Origin: Ignavibacteria bacterium
Lineage (GTDB): Bacteria; Bacteroidota; Ignavibacteria; Palsa-1295
NCBI GenBank assembly: GCA_013287605.1
Contig: JABDDM010000022.1
Span: 1-32,848 of the forward strand
Length of the DNA: 32,848 bases
Direction: 5' to 3'
Position 1 is the stretch's first letter. Each line of letters begins with the position of its first letter. The notes under the pieces are model-generated. The model ran no database searches and was not told the DNA's origin. It worked only from the letters and a program-made list of their open reading frames with translations. The position numbers and the translations under genes are program-made. Of this stretch, positions 2,807 to 8,716 are shown piece after piece.

Positions 2807-4498
2807 CTAGCGATTGATCACGAGTCGTGTCGATGTTGCGACGCCTTTGTCCGTAATGACTCTGACGGTATAAGTACCTGCATCGAGCGACCGAGTATCG
2901 ACAGATGTTTGAACCAATCCACTCACTGCATATGGGATCGAGCTTGAACGGACAAGCTTACCTAGAACATCATAAACTTCGATCTGCACTGCTGAAGGAT
3001 GCAAGAGACTGAGTGACATCCGCACTGCATCACCTGATTGAGATGGATTCGGAAATATCTTTACGATAGCTGCATCAGGAGAAACAAGCTGCATCGCAAC
3101 TCCGACCTGCGTCAGGATCACGAACGGATCACTCTCCTGTGGTACCGTCTCACCCGCAGCAGGAAGAAGTTTGATCACTGCCTGACTCGTGGCTGGGCCA
3201 GTGACCTTCCAGAGATAGGTCGTATCAGTGATGCTGTGAGCGAGGGTATCCCACGCCGCTCCGCCATTTCGGGAGAGCAGGACGTGGACTGCGGCAACTC
3301 CTCGTTTGGTCCACCGTATCGGAAGATTATCTCCGATGTTCAGCGTATCCTTTGATGTTGGTCGCAAGATTTGGATCGATTTCGCAGCAGCGGCAATAGT
3401 AAAATTGCCCTTTTCAATCGCGACCGGATCTCCATTAAAGGCATCCACGACTTTGATCTTACCCATGGTTGTCGCCGAATCGGGTACAGTCCAATTGACA
3501 GGACTCAGCGTCGAAGTAGCAATGCCACGCCAGGTTGTGCCATTGTCCACTGAGTAATAAACCGTCACCGCACTGATATTCAGCTTCTGGAATTGGATCG
3601 GCACAATAGAAAGGGGAGCGAATGTGTGTCCGTCCAACGCGGAATCGATAATTGCGAGTGAGCGAGCAGGGGGTTTTAGCGTATCAAATTTCTTGAGTAC
3701 GAGACCAGCGGCGGTAACGTGATAATCATCACCTGTGGCTGTCTCTTCGATAAAGGCAACGAGTTTAAGGTCAGCAAGCGCGGAGGCGACGGCTGTACGA
3801 ATGACCTCCGTGTATGTAACTCGCGTAGTTGTTCCGGAGGGTTTTCCCATTAGATTGAGGACGGAATCCACAATCGTAATATAACGAACGACATCATCAT
3901 GATTCGAAGGGCCCGAACCATTGCACTGTGCTTGGTTAACGTTATCCTGTAAAATCGCATAGCGCACTTTGACCGTATCTGTTAAGGCGGACCGACTTGT
4001 GATATCAAGTGTCACAGAGAACGTGCGAGTGGAAGGATCGTAGGTCCCACTTACATACGCGATATCAACGCTCCGTGCTTTGCCAGCTTCCTGATCGATA
4101 CGGGCTTCCCACTCCGACTTGGTCGAGGAAAGCCGAGGCCAGGTATTTCCAAAGTCCGTACGATTGACAGCACATACAAAAACCGGGGTACCGCCCGAGC
4201 CAGATACATTTGCCAACCGCCAGTCCGTTTGCGTTGAGCCTACGGCGATGCGAGCGATAATATCGCCAATGTTCGCGACATGATGATTGAGATGAATCAC
4301 CTCCGAGCCCTTGCTTGAGAGAGTGCTCTTGAAATCCGCATCGAACTGATTTGGCTGAGGGCAAAGGTCAACACTATTGGTGAAGGTCTCGTAGAGAACT
4401 CCGTAGGTAGTTTGAGCGCCCAGTCGAACCGTGCCGATGAGGAAAGAAACAATGAAGGCGAGTGAAGTCAGGAGAAGACGTTTGTGGCAAGTATCCAT
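2807..4498 (-). CDS. Secreted protein with T9SS type A-like C-terminal sorting domain
   Basis: ORF with signal peptide (MDTCHKRLLLTSLAFIVSFLIGTVRLGAQ) and C-terminal 'VQIEVYDVLGKLVRSSSIPY...DAGTYTVRVITDKGVATSTRLVINR'. Start refined from 4579 to 4498. Confidence 0.75.
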   Translation of the reverse strand: MDTCHKRLLLTSLAFIVSFLIGTVRLGAQTTYGVLYETFTNSVDLCPQPNQFDADFKSTLSSKGSEVIHLNHHVANIGDIIARIAVGSTQTDWRLANVSGSGGTPVFVCAVNRTDFGNTWPRLSSTKSEWEARIDQEAGKARSVDIAYVSGTYDPSTRTFSVTLDITSRSALTDTVKVRYAILQDNVNQAQCNGSGPSNHDDVVRYITIVDSVLNLMGKPSGTTTRVTYTEVIRTAVASALADLKLVAFIEETATGDDYHVTAAGLVLKKFDTLKPPARSLAIIDSALDGHTFAPLSIVPIQFQKLNISAVTVYYSVDNGTTWRGIATSTLSPVNWTVPDSATTMGKIKVVDAFNGDPVAIEKGNFTIAAAAKSIQILRPTSKDTLNIGDNLPIRWTKRGVAAVHVLLSRNGGAAWDTLAHSITDTTYLWKVTGPATSQAVIKLLPAAGETVPQESDPFVILTQVGVAMQLVSPDAAIVKIFPNPSQSGDAVRMSLSLLHPSAVQIEVYDVLGKLVRSSSIPYAVSGLVQTSVDTRSLDAGTYTVRVITDKGVATSTRLVINR

Positions 4499-4678
4499 AG
4501 ATGTGCTTCTGGAAGAGTGTACATAATCATTCAAATATAGAAGTTTAATGAGGGATTGATTCCTCCGAATTTGGGCCAATATCGAGGAGTCCTGAGAACT
4601 TGTCGAATATGCACGGCGTTAGGCACCAACTCTGCATTGGCGGGTGTTTCGACGAACGGTTTTGGTAACACAACCGCT

Positions 4679-4752
<74 letters not shown>

Positions 4753-4756
4753 CATC

Positions 4757-4790
4757 GGGCAAGGATGAAGGCTGACGGATGAAGGATGAA
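4757..4790 (+). repeat. Left terminal inverted repeat of IVS-like unit
   Basis: GGGCAAGGATGAAGGCTGACGGATGAAGGATGAA; complementary to 5217-5250 with two mismatches. Confidence 0.9.
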
Positions 4791-4798
4791 GTTGGGGA

Positions 4799-5185
4799 AT
4801 GGAGGAGAGGGATCTGAGGGAGCGTACTAAGGAGTACGCTGTGCGGATTATTAAGCTTTGTTCTACACTTCATGCATCCCGCGAGGCTGAGATTCTTGGT
4901 CGGCAATTGCTTCGGTCGGGGACTTCGGTAGGTGCGCATTATCGCGAAGCCAAACGAAGTAAATCGGATGCTGACTTTGTCAGCAAAATCGATGGAGCGC
5001 TTCAGGAATTGGACGAATCCGGTTACTGGATCGAGTTACTAATCGATGCAGGATTTGTGTCAAAAGCCAAGCTCGAAGATTTATTAAGAGAGACCAACGA
5101 GCTTATCGCGATCTTCACGACAATAGTAAAGAAAGTCAAGGCGCGAAAATCGTTGTCCAATAATTTGAATAGTGTGCAAAGCTGA
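4799..5185 (+). CDS. Four helix bundle protein (23S rRNA intervening-sequence protein / S23-like family)
   Basis: 128 aa: 'VRIIKLCSTLHASREAEILGRQLLRSGTSVGAHYREAKRSKSDADFVSKIDGALQELDESGYWIELLIDAGFV...ETNELIAIFTTIVKKVKAR' matches the IVP/four-helix-bundle pattern (R-S-xx-SVxANxxEA, E-xx-W-x-xLL). Confidence 0.92.
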   Translation: MEERDLRERTKEYAVRIIKLCSTLHASREAEILGRQLLRSGTSVGAHYREAKRSKSDADFVSKIDGALQELDESGYWIELLIDAGFVSKAKLEDLLRETNELIAIFTTIVKKVKARKSLSNNLNSVQS

Positions 5186-5216
5186 AGAAAGAGATGCGAA
5201 TCGTGTGCAAGCACTT

Positions 5217-5250
5217 TTCATCCTTCATCCCTCATCCTTCATCCTTGCCC
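5217..5250 (-). repeat. Right terminal inverted repeat of IVS-like unit
   Basis: TTCATCCTTCATCCCTCATCCTTCATCCTTGCCC, reverse complement of 4757-4790 except two positions. Confidence 0.9.
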
Positions 5251-5257
5251 AAACATG

Positions 5258-5331
5258 GTGGGCGTAGCTCAGTCGGTTAGAGCGCCAGGTTGTGGCCCTG
5301 GAGGTCGTGGGTTCGAGACCCATCGCTCACC
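5258..5331 (+). tRNA. tRNA-His (anticodon GTG)
   Basis: GTGGGCG...GGTTGTGGCCC...GTGGG-TTCGAGA-CCCAT-CGCTCAC-C. A G at 5257 can serve as G-1 opposite C73. Confidence 0.95.
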
Positions 5332-5351
5332 CACCGAACACTTGTGTTCCG

Positions 5352-5377
5352 CAAAGCCCTCGTTAGCGAGGGCTTTG
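5352..5377 (+). terminator. Terminator-like hairpin after tRNA-His
   Basis: CAAAGCCCTCG-ttag-CGAGGGCTTTG, 11-bp stem followed by TTGTT. Confidence 0.65.
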
Positions 5378-5424
5378 TTGTTATGTTGCGAGGCGCCGTT
5401 GTGTCTCGGAAATCTTACTGAATA

Positions 5425-6855
5425 ATGGTACGTGTTCGTTTTGCTCCTTCTCCAACCGGATTTGTTCACGTCGGTTCGCTGCGTACTGCGCTCTATAACT
5501 ATTTGTTCGCGCGACATCATGGCGGGGTGAACGTGCTTCGTATTGAGGATACGGATCGTACACGTCTAGTGGAAGGAGCGGTGGAGAATCTCCTTAGCAC
5601 GATGAAGTGGGCAGGCATCACTTTCGATGAAGGTCCGCAGAATCCTGGGAAGTATGGTCCGTACGTGCAGTCTGAAAAGACAGAAGTCTACCGTGCTCAC
5701 GCCGCACAGCTTGTTGCAAGCGAAAAAGCCTACCCTTGCTTTTGTACAACGGAGCGGCTTGCGCTTGTTCGTGAAAGTCAGCAGGCCGCAGGCATTCCGC
5801 CGATGTACGATCGTCATTGCAGAAATCTTTCGAAGGAAGAGGTCGCCACACGCATCGCTGCTGGCGAACCGCATGTCATTCGGCTACGCGTTCCCATAGG
5901 CGAGCTCATTCGTTTCAATGATATCGTGCGTGGCGACATCGAATTTGATTCAAAGACCATCGACGATCAGGTGCTGATAAAGTCGGATGGCTATCCGACC
6001 TATCATCTCGCGAATGTTGTGGATGATCATCAGATGGAGATCACGCACGTCATTCGTGGCGAAGAGTGGCTGCCATCAACACCGAAGCACGTGCTACTCT
6101 ATCAGGCATTTGGCTGGGAGCCGCCAAAGTTTGCCCATTTGCCACTTCTGCTGAATGCCGACCGCAGCAAGCTTTCGAAGCGTCAGGGAGATGTTGCGGT
6201 TGAGGATTACAAGGACAAAGGATATCTCCCCGAAGCACTCGTCAACTTTGTCGCGTTGCTTGGCTGGAATCCATCGGCTTTCGAAGAGATCTTCACGATG
6301 GAAGAGTTGATCAAGGGCTTCGAGCTTGATCGCGTGAACAAGGGCGGTGCAGTCTTCAACAAGGAGAAGCTTGACTGGATGAACTCCGAATATATCCGCA
6401 AACGCTCACCTGAAGACTTACTAGTTTATGTCAAGCCTCTGATTGAGAAGAAGGGTTACATTGTGAGCGATGAGTATATCCTCGCTGTGATCAAGCTGAT
6501 GCAAGAGCGAGCGCGGACGATTAACGATTTCGTCGAATTCGCAAGCTACTTCTTCGAGCGCCCTACGGAGTACGACGAAAAATACAAATCCAAACACTGG
6601 ACGCCCGATGCGAAAGAGCGTTTGCGAGAAGTGCTGCCGGAATTCGGCGCGCTCAACACATGGTCGCATGATTCACTCGAAGGTGTCATTCGCGCCTACG
6701 CTGAGAAAAGTGGAATCAGCGCTGGCAAATTGATCCATCCGATCAGGCTTGCTGTGACCGGCAGAGGCATGGGCCCAGGACTCTTCGAACTGCTCGAAGT
6801 GATTGGCAAAGAAGAGAGCACGACGAGAATCGGACACGCCCTTGAAGCTCTTTGA
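5425..6855 (+). CDS. gltX: Glutamyl-tRNA synthetase
   Basis: 'RFAPSPTGFVHVGSLRTALYNYLFARHHGG...LRIEDTDRTR' and 'KLSKRQGDVAVEDYKDKGYLPEALVNFVALLGW'. Confidence 0.97.
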   Translation: MVRVRFAPSPTGFVHVGSLRTALYNYLFARHHGGVNVLRIEDTDRTRLVEGAVENLLSTMKWAGITFDEGPQNPGKYGPYVQSEKTEVYRAHAAQLVASEKAYPCFCTTERLALVRESQQAAGIPPMYDRHCRNLSKEEVATRIAAGEPHVIRLRVPIGELIRFNDIVRGDIEFDSKTIDDQVLIKSDGYPTYHLANVVDDHQMEITHVIRGEEWLPSTPKHVLLYQAFGWEPPKFAHLPLLLNADRSKLSKRQGDVAVEDYKDKGYLPEALVNFVALLGWNPSAFEEIFTMEELIKGFELDRVNKGGAVFNKEKLDWMNSEYIRKRSPEDLLVYVKPLIEKKGYIVSDEYILAVIKLMQERARTINDFVEFASYFFERPTEYDEKYKSKHWTPDAKERLREVLPEFGALNTWSHDSLEGVIRAYAEKSGISAGKLIHPIRLAVTGRGMGPGLFELLEVIGKEESTTRIGHALEAL

Positions 6856-6895: not shown

Positions 6896-7332
6896 GCGCG
6901 CACCATTGGGCAATCGCTCCTTGTGCCATGAGCGATCATGGCTCATACCTTGACTTAAAGAGGAGAGGAAAGTCCGAACTCCGCAGAGCAGCATGCCGGC
7001 CGAGAGCGTTCAGCAATGAGTGCTCAAGTCCGGGCAGTGGTAAATAACCTTCGGGAAAACACCACTGACAGCGCAGTGTCACAGAAAGCAAACCGCCATG
7101 ATGCGAGCAATCGCATTAGGGTAAGGGTGAAAGGGCGGTGTAAGAGACCACCGTTCAGGGAGTGATCCCTGAAGTCACGATAAACCTCATGCGGAGCAAG
7201 ACCATGTAAGAGACCACGACAGCAATGTCGGCTGCTGCTCGCAGCCTGGTCTCGGGTAGGTCGCTCAGATCAATGATTGCCTCCCTTCCGCAAGGAAGGA
7301 CAGACAGAATTCGGCTTATAGATGGTGTGCGC
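6896..7332 (+). ncRNA. rnpB: RNase P RNA (bacterial class A)
   Basis: Conserved 'GAGAGGAAAGTCCGAACTCC', 'GGGTAAGGGTGAAAGGGCGGTGTAAGAGACCACC' and 'ACAGAATTCGGCTTATAGATGG'. P1 ends pair: GCGCGCACCAT (6896-6906) with ATGGTGTGCGC (7322-7332). Confidence 0.95.
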
Positions 7333-7345
7333 AAAAGTGTAATAC

Positions 7346-8315: not shown

Positions 8316-8716
8316 TTTCCTACTGATGTAATCTGGATCGGCTCCCATGCATCACCGCCGCAGGGTGTGTAGTTGCGGGTGACGTGTTCGTCGAGGATCG
8401 CACAGAGTGTGTTGTCGGCGATGAAATGTTTGCAAGTCGCGCAGAGCGCGTTCCTTGAAGCGCGCCTTACGTCCTTCTGATGCTTCATGAACGAAAGCTG
8501 CGCCGGGTAGATCACGATCACCGCAACACTCACAAAGAACAGCGACCACCAATCGCCATAATTCGGCACATAACTATACAGCGCCCACGCTGCGATGAGC
8601 ACGGCCGTAAACCTTAGAAGTCCCCAGTAAATAATAGCACCCACGTTGGGCAAGTATGAATTATGAAGTATGAAAGGGGAAATTGGGGTTTTGGTTCGGT
8701 GGCTAGCGGTCTGCAA
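8312..8716 (-). CDS. Small membrane protein with C-terminal Cys-rich (CX2C...C...C) domain
   Basis: 134-aa ORF: two hydrophobic segments followed by 'CATCKHFIADNTLCAILDEHVTRNYTPCGGDAWEP'. True start may be internal. Confidence 0.6.
   Translation of the reverse strand: MQTASHRTKTPISPFILHNSYLPNVGAIIYWGLLRFTAVLIAAWALYSYVPNYGDWWSLFFVSVAVIVIYPAQLSFMKHQKDVRRASRNALCATCKHFIADNTLCAILDEHVTRNYTPCGGDAWEPIQITSVGN

Follow-up and report, generated by a model that had tools for sequence, protein, structure and literature searches.

An S23 gene between repeat arms in a tRNA spacer

The spacer between tRNA-Arg(TCT) (4679–4753) and tRNA-His(GTG) (5258–5332) of an Ignavibacteria bacterium contig contains a 494-nt unit (4757–5250, plus strand), the edges of which are given by inverted repeats. 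Coordinates refer to the window, the whole 32,848-nt stretch of DNA that was analyzed. Both tRNA genes, identified by ARAGORN and Rfam, are on the plus strand, as is a 128-amino acid ORF within the unit (4799–5185). The left arm (4757–4790, plus strand) is composed of the tip GGGCAA and four 7-nt repeats of the GGATGAA type, and the right arm (5217–5250, plus strand) is complementary to it at 32 of 34 positions (94%). The local alignment score of the arms is 58, as compared with a maximum of 22–24 for shuffled sequences, in agreement with the heptamer-built, 34-nt terminal inverted repeats described in the first-pass annotation. That annotation placed the start of the unit 4 nt past tRNA-Arg; by the ARAGORN end of this gene the gap is 3 nt, while the 7-nt gap to tRNA-His is as described. 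The residual spacer is thus 10 nt, reading ATC to the left of the unit and AAACATG to its right.

In a 671-nt predicted precursor (4670–5340), the arms form a 34-bp stem with a mean pair probability of 0.90, near 1 along most of its length, and the predicted energy of the arm duplex is -56.8 kcal/mol. The AAGGA motif at 4782–4786 is part of the left arm, as noted in the first-pass annotation, by which stem folding might also gate translation. A consensus scan of 4500–5500 detected no plus-strand promoter and no terminator-like site between the two tRNAs. The single terminator-like hairpin in this interval follows tRNA-His (5351–5378, plus strand) and is weak, with 0.9 such sites expected by chance. 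Elsewhere in the window, a solo repeat array occurs downstream (8648–8692), with a tip, GGGCAAGTATGAATTATGAAGTATGAA, that is a GTATGAA variant of the element's tip. The RNase P RNA (6898–7334) exceeds the length of its model, and inspection by eye revealed no obvious heptamer hairpin insert within it.

The S23 protein

The ORF belongs to the S23/IVP family of four-helix-bundle proteins, as originally assigned. It passes the curated cut-offs of PF05635 (E 3e-18; 66.4 bits, cut-off 33.8) and TIGR02436, ‘four helix bundle protein’ (E 1e-25; 89.9 bits, cut-off 24), and its AlphaFold model is a helical bundle (pLDDT 93) with the S23 fold. The closest structure to this model is that of the S23 protein 2RLD (TM 0.91, normalized by target), with further matches to 2GSC and bAvd; 2RLD and 2GSC are five-chain S23 structures. 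S23 ORFs are under strong purifying selection (median dN/dS 0.07, 63 pairs). Five polar amino acids (Q36, R39, S43, E50, and E73 in window numbering) are 95–100% conserved among 156 S23 proteins from two subfamilies, which suggests a functional site beyond the fold alone and hints at a possible undescribed active or binding site. The S23 tree has phyla intermixed and few well-supported branches, and horizontal transfer as deduced from this tree was dropped for the latter reason. Profile searches found no transposase, nuclease, or reverse transcriptase inside the unit, and S23 is its sole gene.

The spacer is empty in eleven relatives

The two tRNAs without the insert were used as a query in 100 relatives. 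Of the Arg-His spacers read, those of eleven relatives, all from the same family or class, are 8–14 nt in length. The empty spacer of one of these, G009, reads GAGACAAACATG, and the right flank AAACATG is exactly common to the window and one empty-spacer relative. Because of these short empty spacers and the flank match in G009, the 494-nt unit is, as the first-pass annotation had supposed, an insertion, and its right junction is clear. No target-site duplication is obvious at the junction, where one of 1–2 nt could be masked by the divergence of the empty sites on the left.

The same spacer holds other ORF-less palindromes of 7-nt repeats in three relatives, of 87 nt in G012 (AGAATGA), 107 nt in G026 (AATAGGA), and 141 nt in G004 (GAATTAC). 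An S23 gene occurs there only in the window, among the spacers read. Separately, the distance from tRNA-Arg to tRNA-His is ~2.8 kb in one relative (L151, G035:C65), indicating a far larger insertion or rearrangement in this spacer.

ORF-less hairpins and site versions in congeners

The tip and repeats of the left arm recur elsewhere in the genome, a 2.2-Mb draft that is 68% complete, as hairpins without an ORF. By pattern searches, the tip GGGCAAGGATGAAGG has 14 exact copies in this genome, several of them paired as ORF-less hairpins. Pairing of such tips forms ORF-less hairpins, 69–93 bp in length, at no fewer than seven places (C1:23519–23595, C15:5889–5957, C17:27319–27404, C19:1767–1852, C59:5379–5462, C59:6370–6451, and C63:8126–8218). 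The two hairpins on C59 have a loop sequence in common with one on C16. A full S23 gene is present only in the window's unit, among those found in this 68%-complete genome. Most simply, the ORF-less hairpins would be deleted or non-autonomous copies of the same element.

Repeat arrays are patchily distributed across relatives. Searches for GGATGAA arrays gave 48 hits in the window's genome, 87 in G007, 131 in G025, and fewer than 10 in most others, and reversed GGATGAA controls were near zero except in G043. For GTAACGA arrays the counts are 105 in G009, where an S23 element with this repeat occurs, 49 in G008, and 41 in G007. G025 also has long unbroken GGATGAA tandem arrays (on C10, C50, C55, C116, and other contigs), with up to ~11 overlapping matches in a run. 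In the window's genome, longer composite palindromes of the CCTCACCCTAAATCCCTCTCCCAC type adjoin several GGGCAA tips (C1:22000–26500, C19:1600–1900, and C40:20200–20430), as if hairpin families were inserting next to or into one another.

Flanks of S23 elements then served as probes for the corresponding junction in species belonging to a single genus. At the junction before mutL, G009 carries an S23 element of GTAACGA repeats, G011 a GTAACGA hairpin with no ORF, and G008 a short GTAACGA stretch; G010 and G012 have none of these. The second junction is occupied in G111 by S23 with GGAGACA-type repeats and in G117 by a hairpin of this repeat that lacks an ORF; G105 has no hairpin of this kind. 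At the third junction, G011 has S23, G010 and G007 have an empty site, and G008, G003, G012, and G009 have other ORF-less palindromes. A fourth has S23 elements in six congeners, called from S23 matches that fall inside gaps of the flank search, and hairpins only in G117 and G123.

A class of S23 elements with co-varying arms

Homologs were sampled from 47 homologous loci (Chloroflexota, Acidobacteriota, Verrucomicrobiota, Nitrospirota, Pseudomonadota, Bacteroidota, and other phyla), 30 best hits in relatives, and 80 additional loci of relatives, from which 147 S23 ORFs with usable flanks were retained. Inverted arms scoring above shuffled sequences surround 99 of the 147, and 48 fall under the arm threshold. 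The first-pass annotation had staked its reading on empty sites, on inverted repeats around homologous ORFs, and on the lack of a separate promoter and terminator, and on all three points the findings went its way. The 99 elements have a median arm length of 32 nt and a median unit length of 489 bp. Self-match within the arms is 0.68 at both lag 7 and lag 14, as compared with 0.23–0.33 at the remaining lags from 3 to 14, and the repeats fit best to a period of 7 nt in 80 elements, with periods of 8, 6, and 9 nt in 12, 4, and 3 elements, respectively.

The repeat sequence varies widely among elements yet tracks the protein (Mantel r 0.56, 0 of 2000 permutations). Mean repeat distance is 0.19 for pairs with less than 30% protein divergence and ~0.9 for pairs above 55%; the arms and the gene therefore travel together. 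G-U and A-C mismatches are equally frequent between arms (104 each). Because there is no G-U excess, wobble bias leaves an RNA-selected stem unsupported.

The unit is a member of a widespread class, apparently undescribed, of small and probably mobile elements that lie sense-oriented inside bacterial operons. No description of S23 with repeats or mobility was found in the literature searched, which consisted of open-access papers and is not proof of novelty.

Placement within operons

Neighboring genes, called by a simple ORF-based gene caller, were found on both sides within 400 nt for 79 of the 99 elements. S23 and both neighbors are co-directional in 67 of these 79, and S23 is antisense in a tandem pair in 3; once proteins less than 25% apart are collapsed, sense outnumbers antisense 52 to 3. 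In 31 of 73 cases the left arm contains the stop codon of the upstream gene, and in 20 others this codon is no more than 10 nt from the arm, and the median distance from the end of the right arm to the next start is 17 nt. Stop codons in the left arm close 1.94 reading frames, as compared with a mean of 1.61 and a maximum of 1.76 for shuffled arms. Ordinary small genes at the same loci are likewise sense in tandem pairs (27 of 42), and for this reason the element appears to behave as an operon gene dependent on read-through, a behavior unusual for a transposable element.

The tRNA-Arg/tRNA-His case is the same placement pattern, with tRNA genes in place of protein genes. Adjacency to tRNAs, which the first-pass annotation proposed scoring in further copies, proved rare: most elements are between protein genes, and just 2 of 99 are in spacers of stable RNA genes. 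Targeting of tRNAs was accordingly rejected as a trait of the class. No S23 element of the sample was found inside rRNA. The second stable-RNA case is in an Acidobacteria metagenome-assembled genome (L038:2824–3501), where an S23 element (2923–3393) is located between tRNA-Ser and a small SRP RNA gene.

Proposed mechanism

We consider it highly probable that the 494-nt unit is a mobile element, consisting of an S23 gene between short-tandem-repeat arms, that inserted in sense orientation between the tRNAs. This degree of confidence applies to its identity as a mobile element and its placement; the RNA steps below are put forward more tentatively. The unit would have entered a pre-existing gap of ~10 nt between tRNA-Arg and tRNA-His. 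Since no promoter is visible in the unit, expression of S23 presumably depends on the tRNA operon transcript, in which the arms would pair into the 34-bp stem. By analogy with rRNA intervening sequences (IVSs), RNase III and normal tRNA 3'- and 5'-end processing may separate the insert from the tRNAs. Such separation might in turn account for tolerance of the insertion, in the manner of rRNA IVSs, the insert being removable or at least harmless, although we would not yet favor this step over its opposite. RNA removal of the insert is plausible because of the 34-bp stem, and the unit may work like an rRNA IVS. The correlation between arms and protein suggests that S23 probably recognizes the repeat arms of its own element.

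Profile searches of the unit and of the 68%-complete genome identified no mobilizing enzyme. A reverse transcriptase was considered as an obligatory partner and rejected: S23 counts are not clearly correlated with reverse transcriptase across relatives, PF00078 has no match in the 68%-complete genome of the window, and 38 of 58 S23-rich relatives also lack it. A Y1 transposase was similarly rejected as a required partner, being correlated with S23 and not required.

A bolder generalization, to which we give a low probability, is that S23 proteins are the hallmark of a broad group of mobile elements lacking transposases, with arms recognized by an S23 oligomer, that spread via transcripts and enter operon gene junctions sense-wise, the rRNA IVSs being members that landed in rRNA.

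Alternative explanations

The hairpin repeat itself could be the mobile unit, moved in the manner of REP sequences by a Y1-type transposase encoded at another locus of the genome, with S23 as a passenger in the loop. ORF-less hairpins do greatly outnumber S23 copies, and S23 counts are correlated with Y1_Tnp counts over 148 relatives (G001–G148; Spearman 0.56, on raw values that ignore genome size and phylogeny). However, Y1_Tnp was not found in the window's genome (G000), though this is 68% complete, and Y1 is likewise lacking in G006, G016, and G064, each with five or more S23 genes. The tracking of the S23 protein by the repeat sequence is also unexpected for a passenger, and we regard this explanation as unlikely.

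Somewhat less likely still is that the unit is a true rRNA-type IVS that landed in a tRNA operon, with RNase III excision from a structural-RNA precursor as its defining biology. The S23 ORF, terminal complementarity, and sense orientation match those of the Coxiella IVS (PMC4990558), and the element between tRNA-Ser and SRP RNA provides a second instance beside stable RNA. Yet such instances amount to 2 of 99 elements, most being between protein genes, and the arms have no G-U bias. Its location between tRNA genes, outside rRNA, keeps the unit from being classed as an rRNA IVS. ‘IVS-like element in a tRNA operon’, as the first-pass annotation had it, is thus right as an analogy; being specifically of the rRNA kind is not upheld, and the class is broader than the rRNA IVSs.

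That S23 is instead an ordinary resident operon gene, with nothing mobile and with arms grown by slippage into local RNA stability or processing signals, fits its placement like ordinary small operon genes, its purifying selection, and the expandability of tandem 7-mers, but is very improbable given empty sites at several junctions, neighbors that are unrelated from case to case, and identical tips at dispersed sites of one genome.

Comparison with known systems

The mobile element proposed here resembles several known systems in part. The bAvd protein of diversity-generating retroelements has the same helical-bundle fold as S23 (4DWL, TM 0.75–0.78, normalized by target), but no reverse transcriptase occurs in the unit or was found in the 68%-complete genome, and S23 numbers are independent of reverse transcriptase presence in relatives. 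As in DNA transposons and insertion sequences, there are terminal inverted repeats and empty sites; unlike these, the unit has no transposase profile match. MITEs and bacterial REP/BIME sequences are also short, dispersed intergenic palindromes with conserved tips. Here, however, the full-length copy has an S23 gene rather than a transposase, the arms are tandem 7-mers, and the repeat sequence changes with the S23 protein.

Repeats of 7 nt, as in the arms here, are known from cyanobacteria and Beggiatoaceae. Heptamers in P6b of the Nostoc tRNA-Leu intron are paired as a stem in a structural-RNA gene (PMC4476775), whereas the TAACTGA arrays are direct and not inverted repeats (PMC4679880). The cited passages of these two sources report no S23 gene alongside. 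Many orphan heptamer hairpins are now tied to a protein family, S23.

The closest likeness is to the rRNA IVSs with an S23p ORF of Coxiella burnetii and Leptospira, which are 428–444 nt in size (494 nt here) and are excised by RNase III (PMC4990558). In Coxiella, the IVS has an S23 ORF in sense orientation and terminal complementarity with a 28-bp stem (34 bp here). The window's unit differs in being between tRNA genes and not inside an rRNA gene, in having arms of 7-nt repeats and numerous ORF-less relatives elsewhere in the genome, and in that excision is known for the IVSs and predicted here. The origin and function of rRNA IVSs and of the S23 protein have been an open question for more than 25 years, with hypotheses of origin that include a transposition remnant and a mobile element (PMC4990558). 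The many S23 elements in operons, the co-variation of their arms with the protein, and the occurrence of the same site as empty, hairpin-only, and full in congeners make this question testable.
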